DNA of 64,000 nt from Pseudonocardia sp. HH130629-09 (GTDB lineage Bacteria; Actinomycetota; Actinomycetes; Mycobacteriales; Pseudonocardiaceae), in NCBI RefSeq assembly GCF_001294645.1, contig NZ_CP011868.1, positions 372,001 through 436,000 of the forward strand, in the 5' to 3' direction. The notes beneath the pieces were generated by a model. It was not told the origin of the DNA. It made no database searches and saw nothing but the letters and a program-made list of their open reading frames with translations. Within the stretch, counting starts at the first letter, position 1. Each line of letters starts with the position of its first letter. The position numbers and the translations under genes are program-made. Of the stretch, positions 17,987 to 27,601 are shown in pieces.

Positions 17987-19908
17987 GGCCCCGCCACCGG
18001 GCCTCGGGACGCAGGACGCCGGGGTCGGGTCGGGCATCGGGCTGCTCCAGGGGGTCGTCGGGGACGGCGTACTGGTCGGCGACGAGGCGCCAGGCCGTGA
18101 CCCGGGGGTCGGCGGGCGCGCCGACGGCCGCCGCGACCGGCGGCGGGGCGGCCGGAACCGCGCCCACCGGCACGCCGGCCGGGGTGACGGCCGGGTCGCC
18201 GTGCGGCGGCACCGGCGGCGGGGTGGAGCGGCCGTGGGTGGCGGCACCGTGGGGCGCCGGGGCGTCGGGGTGGGGGACGGCGAGGTCACCGGTGGTGACG
18301 GCGTGGTGGGCCGGGCCCGGGGGCCCCGCGGGAGCGGGGCAGTGCGGGGCGACGGCGTGGTCGGCGATGCGGGGCTCGGTGACGTGGGGGTGGGTGGTGT
18401 CGGGGCCGGTGGGATGGGCGCCCGCCGCGCTCCCGGGGGTCGGGCCGCCGCTCGTGGGTCGGTCCGGCGCGCCACCGCCGGCCGTGGGGTCGTCGGGCCC
18501 GGTGGGCGTCGCGCCGTGCGGGGCGGGATCGCCGGTGGCGCCGTACGGGACGGGGCCGTCGTGCGTCGACGGCGGTACCCCGTCCGCGGCCCCCGTGGCC
18601 GGCACGCCGCTGGGGGCGCGGGTGCCGCTGGTCGTCGCGTCGCCGGACGGCGGGCGGTGCTCGGCTCCGCTGGTCGTCGTGTCGCCCGGTCGGTCCGGGG
18701 TGTCGTCGGGGGGGGCGGTGTGTCGCCCGCGGACGGAGTATCGCCACCCGGCGGAGTGCCGCCACTGGACGGAGTGCCGCCACCGGATGGTGGGGTGCCG
18801 TCATCGGGAGGTGTGGCGCTGCCGGACGGTGCCCCGTGGTCGGCGGCGCTGCCGGGTGGCGTCTCGCGGCCGGTGGTGTCGCCGTCGCCGGAGGGGCTCC
18901 GCCCGTCCCGGGCCTGCCGTTCCCGACGGATCGTGGCGCCGATCAGGATCCCGGCGCCACCGAGCGCCCCGCCCGCGAGCACCGCGGCGGTCACGGCCGT
19001 GCCGCCGTCGTCGGGGCCACCGCGGTCGCCCGGGGTGCCGGCGTCGCCCGCCGGGGACGCCGGAGCGGTCCCGGGGTCACCGGTCCCGGGTGCGGTGTCC
19101 GTGGCGGGGGCGTCGCCGGTGCGGGGGTCGTCGGTCGCGGTGGCGTCCGCGGGGTCCCGCCCGGCGGAGGGCCCGCCGACGTCGATCGGTCGCGCACCGG
19201 GCACCCCGGCCCGTCCGTTCCCGGTCAGCACCGCCGCCGTGAGCCCGCCGAAGCCGATCCCCGCGAACACCGACGTCCCCGACCCCGCGCCGTCCACCGG
19301 GACCGGACCCGTGTCGTCGCCGGCGCCGCCGGTGCCGTGTGGGGGCCCGCCGGGGGCGGGGCCGGGACGGCGGGGGAGGCGGCTGCGGTGCCGTCGTGGG
19401 TCACGACCGGGGCCGCGCCCCAGCCGGTCCACGGTGCGCCGGTGGCGTGGGTGTCGTCGTCGTAGCGGATCATGAGCTCCGCGGCCCGACCGGCCGAGTT
19501 GCCCGCGGCGAGGTCGGCGGCCGCCCAGTCGTCGAGCAGGGCCGGGCCCACGGGTGCGGTCTCCGGCGGTGCCGGGGCCGCGGCGGCCGGCATCCGGGCC
19601 CGCAGGTCCGCGGCGAGCCCGGCCTGGGTGGCGAGTGCGTCGGCGGTGCGCTCGGCGTCGGCGGTGGCGGAGACGACCCAGCCGTCGAGTGTCCCGAGCG
19701 CCACGGTGACGCCGTCCGCGGCCGTGCCGGACCATCCCCCCGACAGGCCGCGGACCTGGCCGGACAGCTCGCGGTGGACGTCGGTGAGTGCGGCCGCGGC
19801 GTCGCGCCACGCCCGTTCCGCCCCGGCCGACGCCGCGGGCCCCGGACCGGCCGCCACCATCGCGGCGATCTCGGCGTGGCCGAGCCCCGCCCAGCGCGGC
19901 GCGGTCAC
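17979..19908 (-). pseudogene. PPE/WXG100-like ESX substrate with Pro/Gly/Thr-rich tail, two frameshifts
   Basis: Read across three frames this is one protein of about 643 residues. Frame one (19908 to about 19345) is a helical WXG-like domain with LSGGWSGTAADGV. Frame two (about 19341-18715) has two hydrophobic stretches (VFAGIGFGGLTAAVL, AVTAAVLAGGALGGAGILIG) and Gly/Asp/Thr repeats. Frame three (about 18707-17979) is a Pro/His/Gly/Thr-rich tail. The joins lie at a G5 run (19341-19345) and a G8 run (18708-18715), each behaving as if one base were lost. The GTG start overlaps the upstream stop as GTGA. With the same composition on both sides of each join, sequence error or very recent mutation is likelier than old decay. 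Confidence 0.7.
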
Positions 19909-21214: not shown

Positions 21215-21798
21215 TCAGCCCTCGTCCGCCAGCCGCCCCAGCACGACGACGTCGACCCGCTCGCCGTCGACGGTCCACGCCTCCCGCAGCCGGCCCTCCG
21301 GCACGAACCCCAGCGCCGCGGCGACGGCGGCGGAGGCCCGGTTCGGCTCGGCGTGGCACCAGGTGACGCGGTGCAGCCCGAGCCCGCCGAAGGCGAAGCG
21401 CACGACCGCCCCGGCCGCGGTGCGGGCCAGGCCGCGGCCGGGGCGGCGGCAAGCGTCCAGCAGCGCAGCTCCGCGGTGCCGTGGGCCAGGTCGAGGTGCT
21501 CCAGGGTGATCTCCCCGAGCATCTCCCCGGTCGTCGGCTCGGCCACGGCCCAGGCGCAGCGGGTGCCGCGGGCCCAGCCGTCGATCCGGTCGGCGACGTG
21601 CGCGGTCACCTGTGCGTCGAAGTCCGGGGCCGCGGGGTCGGGCCGGTTGCGCCAGCGCCGGATCTCCGGGTCCCGGCAGGACGCGGCGACGGCCGGGCGG
21701 TCGTCCACCCGGCCGTCGTGCCGCAGCCCGCGCAGGTACCACGCCCCGGCGTTGATCTCGACCGGGTCGAGCACCGGGTCGAGCACCGGGACGGGCAC
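21215..21798 (-). pseudogene. GNAT-family N-acetyltransferase, one frameshift
   Basis: An RimJ/RimL-type acetyltransferase of about 194 residues when joined. The first frame (from GTG 21798) holds the N-terminus and WAVAEPTTGEMLGEITLEHLDL; the second frame holds RGLARTAAGAVVRFAFGGL (acetyl-CoA pyrophosphate loop region) and VTWCHAEPNRASAAVAAALGF. The shift lies near 21430-21455 and equals one lost base. Motifs on both sides are intact, so it is either freshly broken or a sequence error. It begins 5 nt after accA3, and its first codons contain a 12-bp direct repeat (LDPVLDPV). The substrate is unknown. Confidence 0.75.
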
Positions 21799-21802
21799 CG
21801 CG

Positions 21803-23581
21803 TCAGTCCTTGATCTCGCAGATCACGGTGCCCTGGGTGACCGAGGAGCCCTGCTCCGCGTCCAGGCCGGTCACGGTGCCGGACTTCGTCGCGGTGACCG
21901 GGTTCTCCATCTTCATCGCCTCGAGGACGACGATCAGGTCCCCCACCTCGACGGTGTCGCCCTCGGAGACCGCGACCTTGATGATCGTGCCCTGCATCGG
22001 CGCGGTGACGGCGTCGCCCGAGGCCTTCGCCCCGCCGCCGCCCTTGCCGCCGCGCTTGCGCGGGGCCGCCTTGGCCGGGCCGCCGCCGTTGCCGCCTCCG
22101 CCGAGGGCGAGGTCGCCGGGCAGCGAGACCTCCAGGCGTCGCCCGCCGACCTCGACGACGACGGTCTGCCGCTCGCCGGAGGTGTCTTCGGCGCCCGCAC
22201 CGCCCTCGAACGGCGGAACGGTGTTGTTCCACTCGGTCTCGATCCAGCGGGTGTGCACGGTGAAGTCCTCGAGGGTCTCGGCGGCGTAGGCCGGGTCCTC
22301 GACGACGAGACGGTGGAACTCGAGCACGGTCGCCATGCCCTCGACCGTGAACTCGGCGAGCGCGCGCCGGGCCCGCTGCAGCGCCTGCTGCCGGTCGCTG
22401 CCCCACACGATCAGCTTCGCCAGCAGCGAGTCGAACTGGCCGCCGATGACCGAGCCGTCGTCGACACCCGCGTCCATCCGCACGCCCGGACCGGCCGGGT
22501 ACCAGATCCGCTCGACGGTGCCCGGCGCCGGCAGGAAGTTCCGCCCGGCGTCCTCGCCGTTGATGCGGAACTCGATGGCGTGCCCGCGCGGCTCCGGGTC
22601 GCCGTCGAAGTCCAGCTCCTGGCCCTCGGCGATCCGGAACATCTGGCGGACCAGGTCGATCCCGGTGGTCTCCTCCGAGACCGGGTGCTCGACCTGCAGC
22701 CGGGTGTTCACCTCCAGGAAGGTGATCATGCCGTCCTGGCCGACGAGGAACTCGACGGTGCCGGCGCCGTAGTAGCCGGCCTCCTTGCAGATCGCCTTCG
22801 AGGCCTCGTACAGGGTCGTGCGCTGCTCGTCGGTGAGGAACGGCGCGGGCGCCTCCTCGACCAGCTTCTGGAAGCGGCGCTGCAGCGAGCAGTCACGCGT
22901 CCCGACGACGACCACGTTGCCGTGCTGGTCGGCCAGCACCTGGGTCTCGACGTGGCGCGGCTTGTCCAGGTAGCGCTCGACGAAGCACTCGCCGCGGCCG
23001 AACGCGGCGGTGGCCTCGCGGACCGCGGACTCGTACAGCTCGGCGATCTCGGAGCGCTCGCGGGCGACCTTCATGCCGCGCCCGCCACCGCCGAAGGCGG
23101 CCTTGATCGCGACCGGCAGGCCGTGCTCGTCGGCGAAGGCGATGACCTCGTCCGCGTCCTCGACCGGGTTCTTGGTGCCGGGCACCAGTGGGGCGCCGGC
23201 CTTCAGGGCGATGTGCCGTGCGGTCACCTTGTCGCCGAGGTCGCGGATCGACTGCGGCGACGGCCCGATCCAGGTGAGGCCGGCGTCGATCACGGCCTGG
23301 GCGAAGTCGGCGTTCTCCGACAGGAAGCCGTAGCCGGGGTGGATCGCGTCGGCGCCGGACTGCTTCGCGGCACCGATGACCTTCTCGATGTCGAGGTAGG
23401 ACTCGGCGGCGGTGGAGCCGCCCAGCGCGAAGGCCTCGTCGGCGAGACGCACGAACATCGCGTCCCGGTCCGGGTCGGCGTAGACGGCGACGCTCTCCAG
23501 TCCCGCGTCCTTCGCTGCTCGGATCACGCGTACGGCGATCTCTCCCCGGTTGGCGACGAGCACTTTGCGCAGTGCGGGCAC
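21803..23581 (-). CDS. accA3: Acetyl-/propionyl-CoA carboxylase alpha chain (biotin carboxylase + BCCP)
   Basis: A 592-residue two-domain biotin enzyme. Residues 1-450 are biotin carboxylase: [17 protein letters not shown] at the start, [15 protein letters not shown] near 85, ATP-binding [11 protein letters not shown] near 165, [12 protein letters not shown] near 290. A Gly/Lys-rich linker leads to the biotin carrier domain with EAMKMENP near residue 558, whose Lys receives biotin. It carboxylates biotin with bicarbonate and ATP and serves AccD partners such as AccD5 here, feeding fatty and mycolic acid-type synthesis or propionate use. ATG at 23581 follows GGAGGAG. Closest to AccA3 of mycobacteria. 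Confidence 0.96.
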
Positions 23582-23696: not shown

Positions 23697-24131
23697 TCAC
23701 CCGTCCGTGCCCCGCGACCCCGGTCGTGATCGGTCCAGGCGTGACCGGTGCCACCACCGTGCGACCCGGCCACGGGGCCGTGGGGCGGTCCGGCCGTCGT
23801 AGTGCAGCGCCGCCTCGCGCGCGGCCAGCTCACGTCGGGCGCCCGCACCGAGCCGCCCGGCGACCGCCAGCTCGCGGGCCAGGTCCCAGCCCTCCCGCTG
23901 GGCGCCGTAGGGGGCGACGCCGTCGAAGCGGGCGGCGAACCGGGCCTGCCAGCCCGTCCCGGCGTCGACGGCGAGCAGCGGCCACGCCGCGGCGACGAGC
24001 CCGGCCCGCTTGCGCAGCAGGGCGGCCCGGGCCGCGGCCAGCCGCGCCTCGTCGAACCCGGCCGGGTTCGCCCCGCCCGCGACGAGCGCCGCCACCAGCT
24101 CGGTCTGCCGTTGCGCGAGGTCCCCGCTCAC
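23697..24131 (-). CDS. Small MNIO partner protein (SCO6045-like C-terminal domain)
   Basis: A 144-residue helical protein: GDLAQRQTELVAALVAGG, DEARLAAARAALLRKRAGLVA, then WPLLAVDAGTGWQARFAARF and DGVAPYGAQREGWDLARELA, ending with a basic Arg-rich tail. I match it from memory to the SCO6045-like partner found beside DUF692 proteins in actinobacteria, which may act like the leader-binding partner of other MNIO enzymes. The GTG start overlaps the end of the DUF692 gene by 4 bp (GTGA), implying a complex or strict co-expression. The SCO6045-like assignment is moderate; the gene pairing is directly visible. Confidence 0.65.
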   Translation of the reverse strand: MSGDLAQRQTELVAALVAGGANPAGFDEARLAAARAALLRKRAGLVAAAWPLLAVDAGTGWQARFAARFDGVAPYGAQREGWDLARELAVAGRLGAGARRELAAREAALHYDGRTAPRPRGRVARWWHRSRLDRSRPGSRGTDG

Positions 24132-25019
24132 GTCGTGCCCGTCCGGTCCGCGGCGGGCGCGGTCACCGGCCCGGCCCCGTGGCGGGAGTCCACACCCGTC
24201 CGGCACGGCGACGCGTGCCCGGCCGTGGCCGCCACGGCGTCCAGCTCCGCGCGCAGCTCCGCGGCGGGCGGGTAGCGGCCGTCGCGCTCCAGCATCACCG
24301 GCGTCGGCACCGGCAGCAGCGCCACGGTGTGGGTCAGCAGCGCCAGCACCGCGTCCGGGACGGGGTCGGTGTGGGTGTCGTGCAGCAGCCCCGTCGCGTC
24401 GGCGGCGTGCCCGGCGACGTGGCAGTAGGCCACCGCCCCGGTGGCAGGCCGGCGAGCAGCGCGTCGACGTCGGCCCGCGGGTCGCGGCCCCGGTTGCGGG
24501 CGTTGACGTAGGTGTTCGCGACGTCGAGCAGCAGCGGAGACCCGGTCCTGTCGTGCGGCCGGTGCAGGAACTCCGCCTCGTCGAACTCGTCGTCGGGCCA
24601 GTCGAACAGCGCCGCGATCGGCTCCGGCGCCAGTGGGACGTCCAGCTCCGGCCGGGTCGCCGCCACGTTCGCGGCGAGCACGTCGAGCGCGTCCCGGGTG
24701 CGGGGAGCGGCAGCAGGTGCCCGGCCTCGACCCCGCCCGCCCGGGTGAACGCGATGTGCTCGCTGACCAGTGCCGCACCCGTCGCGGCGACGCAGGCCGC
24801 GAGGTGGGCGACCCGCCCCGGGGCGACGCCCTCGGGGGAGCCGGGCGACAGCCGCACCCCGTGCACGACGACCGGCCTGCGCAGCAGCGACGCCGGGACC
24901 GCGTCGGGGTGCAGCGACTCGGCGACGACCGCGTGGAAGGCGAGGCCGTCGACATCGTCGAGGACCGCCGCGATCCCGCTGCGCCAGCCGACCCCGGTCC
25001 CGCCCGGGACACCCGTCAT
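24128..25019 (-). pseudogene. DUF692 / multinuclear non-heme iron oxidase (MNIO), two frameshifts
   Basis: Joining three frames gives an almost complete TIM-barrel MNIO of about 297 residues. Frame one (from 25019) holds FHAVVAESLH, VVVHGVRLSPGS and LVSEHIAFT. Frame two (about 24700-24445) holds LLLDVANTYVNARN. Frame three (about 24445-24128) holds AYCHVAGHAADATGL and HDTHTDPVPD. These His, Glu, Asn and Asp residues are the usual iron ligands, so the active site is intact apart from the shifts. MNIOs modify Cys or Asp in ribosomally made peptides. Shifts lie near 24692-24705 and 24436-24450 and each looks like one lost base. It sits between a Gly/Cys-tailed membrane protein and a small partner. 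Confidence 0.82.
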
Positions 25020-25112
25020 CTGGTCACCTCCGCCGTACGAGCCGTTCCCGCAGCTTCACACCCCCCACGGTGCAGCTGCGGGGACGGCAGATCCGGTTCC
25101 CCCGTCGCGGGC

Positions 25113-26024
25113 TCAGCCGCCGCAGCCGCCCCCGCCGCCGCTGTCGCTGCCGGACCAGCCGACGGCGCCCCCGCCGTCGGAGGAGCCGCCCCCGGTCGCG
25201 GCGGGCGCCCCGCCGAGCGTGCCGAGCTTCTGCGCGGCGAGCTCCTCGGCGAAGGCAGGCTCGGCGGCCAGCATCGCGCCCACTCCGAACGCCCCGACCG
25301 ACAGCGCGGCCGCGGCGGGCCCGACGGCCGTCCAGTCCGGGCGCATCGACGGCGACAGTGCGTCGTGGCGGGACCGCACGGCGGCGAGCGCGGCGTCCCC
25401 GGCCCGGGTCCGGGCGGGCACCTGCGTCGCGAGGACCGCCGCGAACACCGCGGTGGCGGCGACGAGCACCAGCAGGAACCCGACCGGGCGCCCGCCGCCC
25501 AGCCCGGCGGCGATCCGGACCGCACCGACGAGGGCGAGCGCCCCGACCGGCCAGGCGGTCGCCCGGTGGCGGGCCCGGTCGGCAGGGGACAGCAGCAGCC
25601 CCGCGGTCTCCAGCCGCTGGGCGGCCCGGGTCAGCTCGGTGCGGACCGGCTCGTGGGTGCCCAGCATCCGGCCCGGGGTCAGGCGCTGCGCAGAGCGGTG
25701 GATCGCGCGCTGCAGCGCCGACGCGCCGTGCCCGGGGACCCGGCCCGCCCGTACCTGGCCCGTGGTGCGGCCGGAGGTGACCAGGCTGCCGTCGACGTGC
25801 ATGGCCGACAGGGCCGCGTACACGGCCAGCTCGGGCCCGCCGTTGAGGTACGCGACGTCCTCGGGTCTGCTGTCGAGGGTGTCGGCGCCGCGCGGATCCC
25901 CCTGCGCGATCGCCCGCCGCCGGCGCAGCACGATCCCGGACACCAGGACCAGCGCGACGACGTAGAGGACCAGGAAGGTCTGGCCCGGGATGCCCCAGGT
26001 GTCCCCGGTGAGGTTCGTGCCCAT
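25113..26024 (-). CDS. TIGR04222-type membrane protein with Gly/Ser/Cys-rich C-terminal tail
   Basis: A 303-residue protein. A first membrane helix (TFLVLYVVALVLVSGIVL, about 15-32) is followed by the conserved region VAYLNGGPELAVYAALSAMHVDGSL typical of TIGR04222. Two more helices follow (about 170-220), then one near AAALSVGAFGVGAMLAA. The last 30 residues are low complexity (GGGSSDGGGAVGWSGSDSGG and then GGGCGG) with a single Cys three residues from the end. ATG at 26024 was chosen because the preceding GGTGGAG is a fair binding site. Gene order with DUF692 suggests its tail could be the substrate of the oxidase; that is inference. Confidence 0.78.
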   Translation of the reverse strand: MGTNLTGDTWGIPGQTFLVLYVVALVLVSGIVLRRRRAIAQGDPRGADTLDSRPEDVAYLNGGPELAVYAALSAMHVDGSLVTSGRTTGQVRAGRVPGHGASALQRAIHRSAQRLTPGRMLGTHEPVRTELTRAAQRLETAGLLLSPADRARHRATAWPVGALALVGAVRIAAGLGGGRPVGFLLVLVAATAVFAAVLATQVPARTRAGDAALAAVRSRHDALSPSMRPDWTAVGPAAAALSVGAFGVGAMLAAEPAFAEELAAQKLGTLGGAPAATGGGSSDGGGAVGWSGSDSGGGGGCGG

Positions 26025-26192: not shown

Positions 26193-26656
26193 TCAGCCGG
26201 TGGCGGCCCGCACCTGGTTCTTGATGCGCGCCAACATCGCGGCGATGCCACGCAGCCGCAGCGGGCTGACGGCCTCGGCGAGGCCGAGGTCGGTGTAGAA
26301 GTCGTCCGGGACGGCCAGGACCGTCGCGGCGGGCTGCCCGTCGAGCCCGGTCATCATGATCGAGGCGAACCCGCGGGTGGTCGGCGCCTCCTTCGGCGCG
26401 GAGAAGAACAGGTGGACCGGCCGCTCGGCAGGCGGGTCGCCCGGGGTGCCCGCCACCTCGACCGCGAGGAACAGCGGCGACTGGCACTCGTGGACCTGCT
26501 CCATGGTGTCCGCGGTGTCGGCGTAGCGTTCGGGCAGGTCCGGCAGCTCCTGGGACAGCTCCAGCAGCAGCTGGAGACGGTCCTTCGGGCCGACCGCGGC
26601 GAAGTCCTCGACCAGCTCGGCCAGGTCGGGGGGAGTGTGCCGGGATCGCCGCTCAC
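26193..26656 (-). pseudogene. sufE: SufE-family protein, one frameshift near the N-terminus
   Basis: SufE proteins accept sulfur on a Cys and stimulate cysteine desulfurase. The C-terminal 103 residues ([17 protein letters not shown] onward) are open with the active-site Cys in HECQSPL. The upstream sequence in the same frame ([20 protein letters not shown]) is also SufE-like but has no start codon. The natural GTG at 26656 overlaps the sseA stop (GTGA) and reads [10 protein letters not shown], and it meets the main frame if the C6 run at 26628-26633 (G6 on the plus strand) had one more base. So the gene is complete but for one homopolymer base. Adjacent to the sulfurtransferase sseA, as in mycobacteria. 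Confidence 0.8.
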
Positions 26657-27561
26657 GCGGACCCGCGCTCCTGTCCCTGCACGATCGGCACGCGCACGGC
26701 GTTGCCCCACTCGGTCCAGCTGCCGTCGTAGTTGCGGACCCGGTCGAAGCCCAGCAGGTGGGTCAGCACGAACCAGGTGTGGCTGGAACGCTCGCCGATC
26801 CGGCAGTAGGCGACGACGTCGTCGGTGGCCGACAGCCCCTGCTCCTGCTCGTAGATGGCCGACAGCTCGGCACGGCTGCGGAACGAGCCGTCCTCGGCGG
26901 CGGCGCGGGCCCACGGGACGCTCGCGGCGCCCGGGATGTGCCCGCCGCGGACCGCGCCCTCCTGCGGGTAGTCCGGCATGTGCAGCTTCTCGCCGGTGTA
27001 CTCCTGCGGGGACCGCACGTCGACCAGCGCCCCGCCTCCGGTCGACACGAGCCCCAGGTGGGCGAGCACGTCGTCCTTGAACGCGCGGATGCCGGAGTCG
27101 TCCCGCTCGACGACCGGGTAGTCGGCCTTCGCCGGGGTGGGCTTCTCGGTGACCATCTCGCGGCCCTCGGCGACCCACGTGGACCGGCCGCCGTCGAGCA
27201 GCCGCACGTCGGCGTGGCCGAACAGGGAGAACACCCACAGCGCGTAGGCGGCCCACCAGTTGTTCCGGTCGCCGTAGACGACGATCGTGGTGTCCCGGCC
27301 GATGCCGCGCTCGGACATGATCTTGGCGAAGCGGGTGCCGTCGACGTAGTCCCGGGTGACCGGGTCGTTGAGCTCGGTGTGCCAGTCGACCTTCACCGCG
27401 CCGGGGATGTGCCCGGTGTCGTAGAGCAGGACGTCCTCGTCCGACTCCACGACCACCAGCCCGGGGTCGTCCAGATGCTCCGCCAGCCAGGCGGTCGTGA
27501 CCAGGCGCTCGGGGTGGGCGTACTCGGCGAGCTTCGGGTCGGGGTCGTGTCCGACAGTCAT
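26653..27561 (-). CDS. sseA: Thiosulfate/3-mercaptopyruvate sulfurtransferase
   Basis: A 302-residue protein with two rhodanese domains. The N-terminal domain ends around residue 130 with [17 protein letters not shown]; the C-terminal domain has the active-site loop [10 protein letters not shown] around residue 252, where the Cys carries the persulfide. It moves sulfur from thiosulfate or mercaptopyruvate to thiol acceptors; next to sufE it probably feeds sulfur trafficking. ATG at 27561 is preceded by a TACCCT box 6 nt upstream, so the transcript is likely leaderless. Stop overlaps the sufE start. Confidence 0.93.
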
Positions 27562-27567
27562 GGCCGC

Positions 27568-27573
27568 AGGGTA
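27568..27573 (-). promoter_or_regulatory. -10 box for leaderless sseA
   Basis: TACCCT on the minus strand, 6 nt before the ATG of sseA. Confidence 0.5.
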
Positions 27574-27601
27574 ACCAGGTGCCCCGACACCCACACACGG
27601 G

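Follow-up and report, generated by a model that had tools for sequence, protein, structure and literature searches.

Which molecule does an iron-dependent peptide-modifying enzyme act on when its gene lies directly behind that of a membrane protein? Multinuclear non-heme iron-dependent oxidative enzymes (MNIOs) are known as modifiers of peptides that are exported from the cytosol. A locus of Pseudonocardia sp. HH130629-09, contained in a 64,000-nucleotide stretch of contig NZ_CP011868.1 (hereafter the window), raises this question with three consecutive genes on the minus strand: a membrane protein of the TIGR04222 family, an MNIO (DUF692, PF05114), and a small partner whose start lies inside the oxidase stop codon as a GTGA overlap (24131-24128). 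The original prediction, made from the DNA of the window alone, described this trio in this order, with two frameshifts in the oxidase and a Gly/Ser-rich end of 30 residues on the membrane protein, and all of these were found at the positions it gave; it further proposed the tail of the membrane protein as the substrate. We find that the best explanation, to which we assign a probability of about 0.6, is that the MNIO and its partner modify Cys-Gly repeats in a membrane-anchored, cytosol-facing tail, the window holding a frame-broken copy of this system. The modification would probably stay on the membrane protein and not on a released peptide.

The first line of evidence comes from the distribution of tail cysteines within the genus. 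The survey covered 62 Pseudonocardia genomes and matched MNIO in 45 of them and TIGR04222 in 56; 65 TIGR04222 rows exceeded the cut-off and 55 were counted, those left out being 2 second fragments, 3 truncated copies, 3 copies with a broken MNIO, and G034 and G035, without a readable tail (tree). At least two Cys occur in the counted part of the tail in 39 of the 40 TIGR04222 copies with an adjacent intact MNIO, against 3 of the 15 without (Fisher p 1.3e-8, uncorrected for kinship). These cysteines stand in a narrow context: across the 39 tails, Gly comes directly after 109 of the 110 Cys, and GCGG forms the end of 37 tails. The TIGR04222 stop of the MNIO-adjacent copy lies 8-162 nt from the MNIO match, on the same strand. 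The one MNIO-adjacent copy with fewer than two Cys belongs to G057, where four tandem TIGR04222 copies lie upstream of a single MNIO (L068, G057:C2:59500-72500), two of them with 4-5 tail Cys and two with none. The single Cys described in the original prediction is real in the window (residue 301 of 303, codon TGC at 25124-25122) but atypical of the kind: the sister protein P0001, 98% identical to the window protein, has three.

The remainder of the membrane protein does not depend on the oxidase in the same way. TIGR04222 cores without an MNIO have ratios of nonsynonymous to synonymous substitution rates (dN/dS) of 0.26-0.54 in 7 pairs (an eighth pair was dropped, as it involved the wrong copy), compared with 0.22-0.60 in 8 pairs with an MNIO. 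Because the core persists under apparent selection in MNIO-less lineages, it likely has a function of its own, and the tail would be an add-on to it.

At the scale of the class, MNIO was found in 98 of 393 genomes, and the surroundings of 76 loci (those with flanks, a subset of the MNIO loci) could be compared. An open reading frame with a Gly/Ser/Cys tail is present on the MNIO strand (-2.5/+3 kb) at 52 of the 76 loci and on the other strand at none of the 76, and 38 non-MNIO control loci (1.52 Mb of strand from two genomes of the genus) yielded 2 such frames; the tailed frame thus stands beside MNIO more often than chance would place it there. Three of the 24 loci scored as tail-less do show a tail in another comparison, having been missed owing to short flanks (G093 and G173) or, probably, to the composition threshold (G075). 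TIGR04222-like frames, detected with a custom profile, lie near the MNIO at 45 of the 76 loci. At seven of the 76 loci the tail is carried by a mini-protein (83 to about 119 residues) with one helix and no TIGR04222 match (G145, G199, G322 and G346 in genus g51; G154 and G298 in genus g33; G120 in genus g35), in which a strongly basic segment separates the helix from the tail. Since the same tail occurs on another anchor beside MNIO, it travels with the MNIO whatever its anchor. In G145 and G199 the Cys tail was at first suspected to be fused to the oxidase, a reading that was rejected because a separate, overlapping mini-gene lies there. Small proteins with a single transmembrane (TM) segment and Gly/His/Cys tails were seen beside MNIO at L181, L183, L245, L246, L230, L300, L233, L293 and L297; their genes partly overlap the MNIO gene and are probably easily missed in gene calling. 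In the accessible text of open-licence PMC literature (subscription journals being outside the scope), single-TM Gly/Cys-tailed MNIO substrates were not found.

The partner recurs at nearly all of these loci. A partner-like frame lies near the MNIO, on either strand, at 70 of the 76, and inspection by eye suggests one also at G120, which is among the six misses. A 4-nt overlap of the partner start with the MNIO stop is shared by 31 of the 34 relatives examined; in the other three the MNIO frame continues (426-471 aa) into the partner as a fusion; both Pfam domains are confirmed on P0256 and P0286, and 17 fusions of PF05114 with PF26136 occur among the 120 MNIO homologues listed. Pfam scans assigned no family to the window partner (at E 0.1) or to two relatives (at E 1); the window partner is 93% identical to P0122, which carries a precomputed PF26136 assignment, as do the 120 homologues listed for the partner of G043. 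Its AlphaFold model consists of six helices with a predicted local distance difference test (pLDDT) score of 90.0, and the best match in the PDB, a weak one, is MbnC of the MbnABC complex. SCO6045 of Streptomyces coelicolor, from which the partner domain takes its name, appears in an RNA-seq table on the redox system HbpS-SenS-SenR in the accessible part of PMC4991794, which possibly hints at redox or metal stress.

If the proposed system operates as we envisage, the partner would present the tail to the MNIO, which would oxidize the Cys of [G/S]-C-G-G units; by analogy with bufferins, the probable products are thiooxazole-type groups with affinity for copper or another metal. A more ambitious version, which we offer tentatively and regard as rather doubtful, describes a tail-writing system of actinomycetes in which the MNIO and the PF26136 partner make metal- or redox-active heterocycles on the Cys-Gly repeats of cytosol-facing tails, with an interchangeable anchor (three-helix TIGR04222 protein or single-helix mini-protein), so that the product would be a permanent fixture of the membrane rather than a peptide for secretion.

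In the window itself the oxidase has no single intact reading frame. Its three PF05114 pieces score 58.1, 64.5 and 59.8 bits (each over the cut-off of 25) and jointly cover positions 2-261 of 263, the same span over which the oxidase of an intact relative scores 228.7 bits; a tblastn search with the intact P0243 of Ae717_Ps2 covers its residues 1-297 in three frames at 92-97% identity, so that no part is missing. Among the columns invariant in 16 relatives, the pieces retain H53, E87, H88, E133, D166, N169, H201, H214, D215, H217 and E245 and have Ala at E30; the conserved His/Glu/Asp/Asn positions of the PF05114 family are putative ligand positions. The dN/dS of the pieces is about 0.25 both against G005 and against G043, the same as between G005 and G043. 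As the pieces still look constrained, any loss is recent, and we consider that this strain has probably lost the enzyme of late and has a shrinking tail; otherwise, the breaks would stem from errors in the assembly and the system would be functional here. The latter is a serious alternative, to which we give somewhat less than even odds. The unchanged dN/dS speaks for it, as do the intact oxidase copies among sister proteins and the clustering of the breaks: when genes were compared with G005, 2 of 38 were broken in the window genome, namely the MNIO and a GNAT gene about 3 kb off, and the comparison in the opposite direction gave 0 of 32. (An intact biotin carboxylase gene separates the broken GNAT gene from the broken oxidase.) Against assembly error, two columns invariant in 34 intact relatives are radically changed in the window (Glu to Ala, Leu to Pro), although at least two changes at otherwise invariant columns are also found in 5 of the 34; the tail is two Cys short of P0001; and similar states recur in G007, with its MNIO in pieces, three tail Cys and the tail end CDG, and in G003, with an MNIO remnant and zero tail Cys. 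The biotin carboxylase serves as a position marker for this decay series. It lies 1400-1648 nt behind the MNIO-adjacent TIGR04222 copy at 10 measurable intact or frame-broken loci, and 269-298 nt behind the TIGR04222 stop in G006, G008 and G026, where MNIO was not found. The window copy is a broken member of a known cluster kind and, because it is broken, a poor place for functional study.

Where the tail resides was approached by modeling. The AlphaFold model of the TIGR04222 protein (mean pLDDT 86.8, below 60 in the tail) has membrane-length helices at 14-40, 157-175 and 182-200, and a PDB search with it found nothing at E 0.001 or better. Averaged over 71 homologues, the number of Lys and Arg residues is 0.08 before helix 1, 4.11 after helix 1 and 3.82 after helix 3, which by the positive-inside rule assigns both the large domain and the part following helix 3 to the cytosolic side. 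With three helices, the N-terminus out and the C-terminus in, the tail would share the compartment of the enzyme, so that no export step would be needed. We favor this predicted topology over the published periplasmic one, stated by Antoine 2025 (PMC12452194, accessible text) from predicted topology. The published placement corresponds to a variant of the same system in which the tail is modified in the cytosol, moved across by a fourth helix, and displayed as an extracytoplasmic metal ligand like the bufferins. Its best argument, and one that weighs against a cytosolic tail, is an acidic stretch following the would-be fourth helix; this segment also reaches a Kyte-Doolittle value of 1.6 in some tails (13 of 39 from the genus, 10 of 48 from the class). 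We nevertheless hold it doubtful, as the segment is insufficiently hydrophobic in 38 of the 48 class tails and is broken in the model (236-246, 248-254, 256-270), and the single-TM mini-proteins carry their basic stretch on the tail side.

Several observations weigh against the tail as substrate. In g20 (probably Streptomyces), the MNIO lacks a Cys tail beside it at 14 of 22 loci (13 with enough flank), several of which adjoin a Cys-free TIGR04222 protein; eight other tail-less loci are those of G233, G277, G190, G075, G136, G145 C1, G343 and G172 C216, and G249 has 648 nt downstream only. Conversely, Cys tails without an adjacent MNIO exist in G040 (none found in the genome), in two extra copies of G044, and in G121, where MNIO was not found. 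Raw Cys counts across the class (19 of 31 near an MNIO, 5 of 8 with the MNIO elsewhere, 5 of 11 with none) give no clean separation by MNIO. Within the genus, the tree yields five independent contrasts on well-supported branches, with three to four in the same direction and none or one opposed (sign test, median p 0.25); with so few independent losses, the apparent co-loss of tail Cys and MNIO is suggestive, not proof. MNIO-adjacent tails without Cys, which the original prediction named as what would speak against it if found in most genomes, are rare in Pseudonocardia (1 of 40) and prevail in g20.

The tails without an MNIO in G040 and G121 and the g20 loci without a Cys tail are what would be expected if the Gly/Cys tail did its work without modification, for instance as a metal-binding or redox site, and the MNIO acted on a different substrate or were linked to the tail by shared regulation only. 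We consider this unlikely in view of the close same-strand adjacency, the co-loss within the genus, and the recurrence of the same tail on unrelated anchors beside MNIO. The co-loss, the Cys-Gly context, the anchor swap and the recurring partner support the tail as the predicted substrate. Less probable still is a cleavage that would free the modified tail as a peptide, with the membrane part as an unusual leader and DPAFA-E/D as a signal-peptidase site: an A/V/S-x-A motif does precede the listed tails with an adjacent intact MNIO (except in G042 C1, where it is missing), but Cys-free relatives, among them G006, G008 and G026, have it as well, the core persists without tail or MNIO, and the DPAFA that looks convincing in Pseudonocardia gives way to DRKLA, DRNLA, DPYLT or further sequences in relatives from other genera whose Cys tails are linked to an MNIO, so that signal-peptidase release was rejected.

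Some MNIO loci of the class survey show other arrangements. At g20 loci (L237-L244 and others) the MNIO lies near a Cys-free TIGR04222-like protein that starts with MFWVLLLL and has Cys near the N-terminus, and at several g20 loci the MNIO is part of a long frame with a partner-like end. At L234 (G172:C216) the gene just behind the MNIO encodes a small protein whose N-terminus is leader-like and whose short end contains Cys, and a large enzyme gene comes next; the small protein looks like an ordinary precursor of a ribosomally synthesized and post-translationally modified peptide.

The original prediction knew of no described product for this arrangement; the idea of the tail as substrate is already in print. 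The accessible text of Antoine 2025 (PMC12452194) describes TIGR04222-MNIO clusters and proposes that the C-proximal Cys segments of a subset are modified, placing the tail in the periplasm; it also reports that the MNIO is missing from one third of TIGR04222 genomes and C-proximal Cys from over a quarter of the proteins. Those clusters resemble the window in families, gene order and the Gly/Ser/Cys tail as proposed substrate. Part of them have small partners of PME-type 2, a group with a fold related to NGO1945, TglI and MbnC but no DUF2063 signature, to which the window partner may belong. They differ in that partners are reported there for at least 10% of TIGR04222 clusters, many being without, whereas a partner-like frame is almost always present here, and in the location of the tail, which we read as cytosolic. 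Single-TM tail proteins and within-genus co-loss were not met in that accessible text, although its very small proteins 'adjamnio-V' may overlap the mini-proteins.

An earlier account of ant-associated Pseudonocardia (PMC5183585, 2016) calls a cluster with a TIGR04222 product a probable antibacterial bacteriocin cluster. According to its accessible text, this Cluster E unites a TIGR04222-domain product, a sulfur transferase and an accessory protein and is present in all ten strains, including Ae717_Ps2, a close relative of the window strain. From these neighbors we infer that Cluster E is the locus of the window; nothing in our results supports the release of an antibacterial peptide.

Among characterized systems the bufferins come closest, since there too the MNIO acts on Cys followed by Gly, and the oxidase of the intact relative matches the BufB model (NF050167) over its whole length. 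Its score of 170.5 bits, and those of the window pieces (41 and 42.3), fall below the model's cut-off of 310 bits. The DUF2063 (PME-type 1) partner of bufferins was not found at the window locus by a Pfam scan of the partner and two relatives, and in contrast to the Sec signal peptide of bufferins, TIGR04222 has no basic N-terminal stretch and shows a reversed Lys/Arg charge pattern. Unlike bufferins, the substrate here would be a predicted integral membrane protein, and unlike MbnB/MbnC and TglH/TglI, which have peptide substrates, it would not be a peptide; the methanobactin MbnB model gives a score of 27 against a cut-off of 325.

The features of the locus are listed in Table 1. The TIGR04222 match covers residues 1-228 of the 229 in the profile, and a DNA-pattern search for close relatives returned four loci. 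Outside the cluster, window positions 18332-18821 fail to align with the otherwise collinear relative G005, and long Gly/Pro/Thr-rich frames surround them.

Table 1. Coordinates within the window of the genes and gene parts at the TIGR04222-MNIO locus.
Feature	Positions	Strand	Remarks
TIGR04222 membrane protein	25113..26024	-	303 aa; NCBIfam TIGR04222 (near_uncomplex) 128.5 bits, cut-off 43
Gly/Ser-rich C-terminal tail	25113..25205	-	last 30 residues and stop; predicted substrate remnant
MNIO (DUF692, PF05114 MbnB_TglH_ChrH) oxidase gene	24128..25019	-	full length, three frames
MNIO pieces	~24702-25019, 24436-24705, 24131-24439	-	three frames
Small helical partner	23697..24131	-	144 aa; probable SCO6045-like C-terminal domain (PF26136)
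Biotin carboxylase with biotin carrier domain	21803..23581	-	downstream neighbor; Pfam
GNAT acetyltransferase gene	21215-21798	-	frame-broken
SufE-like protein	26193..26504	-	upstream neighbor; PF02657 77.2 bits, cut-off 27 (3' part of gene scanned)
Rhodanese-type sulfurtransferase	26653..27594	-	upstream neighbor; PF00581 112.8 bits

Compared with what is in print, the co-loss within the genus, the exchange of anchors and the near-universal partner sharpen the published proposal, and its topology is challenged. If a cytosol-facing tail is indeed the substrate, MNIO chemistry would be widened from peptides to resident membrane proteins, and a reason would be given for the puzzling low-complexity Cys tails of TIGR04222 proteins. 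The natural losses in Pseudonocardia, in which the MNIO is present, broken or absent, offer ready comparison strains, and the mini-proteins would be small enough for direct mass spectrometry.
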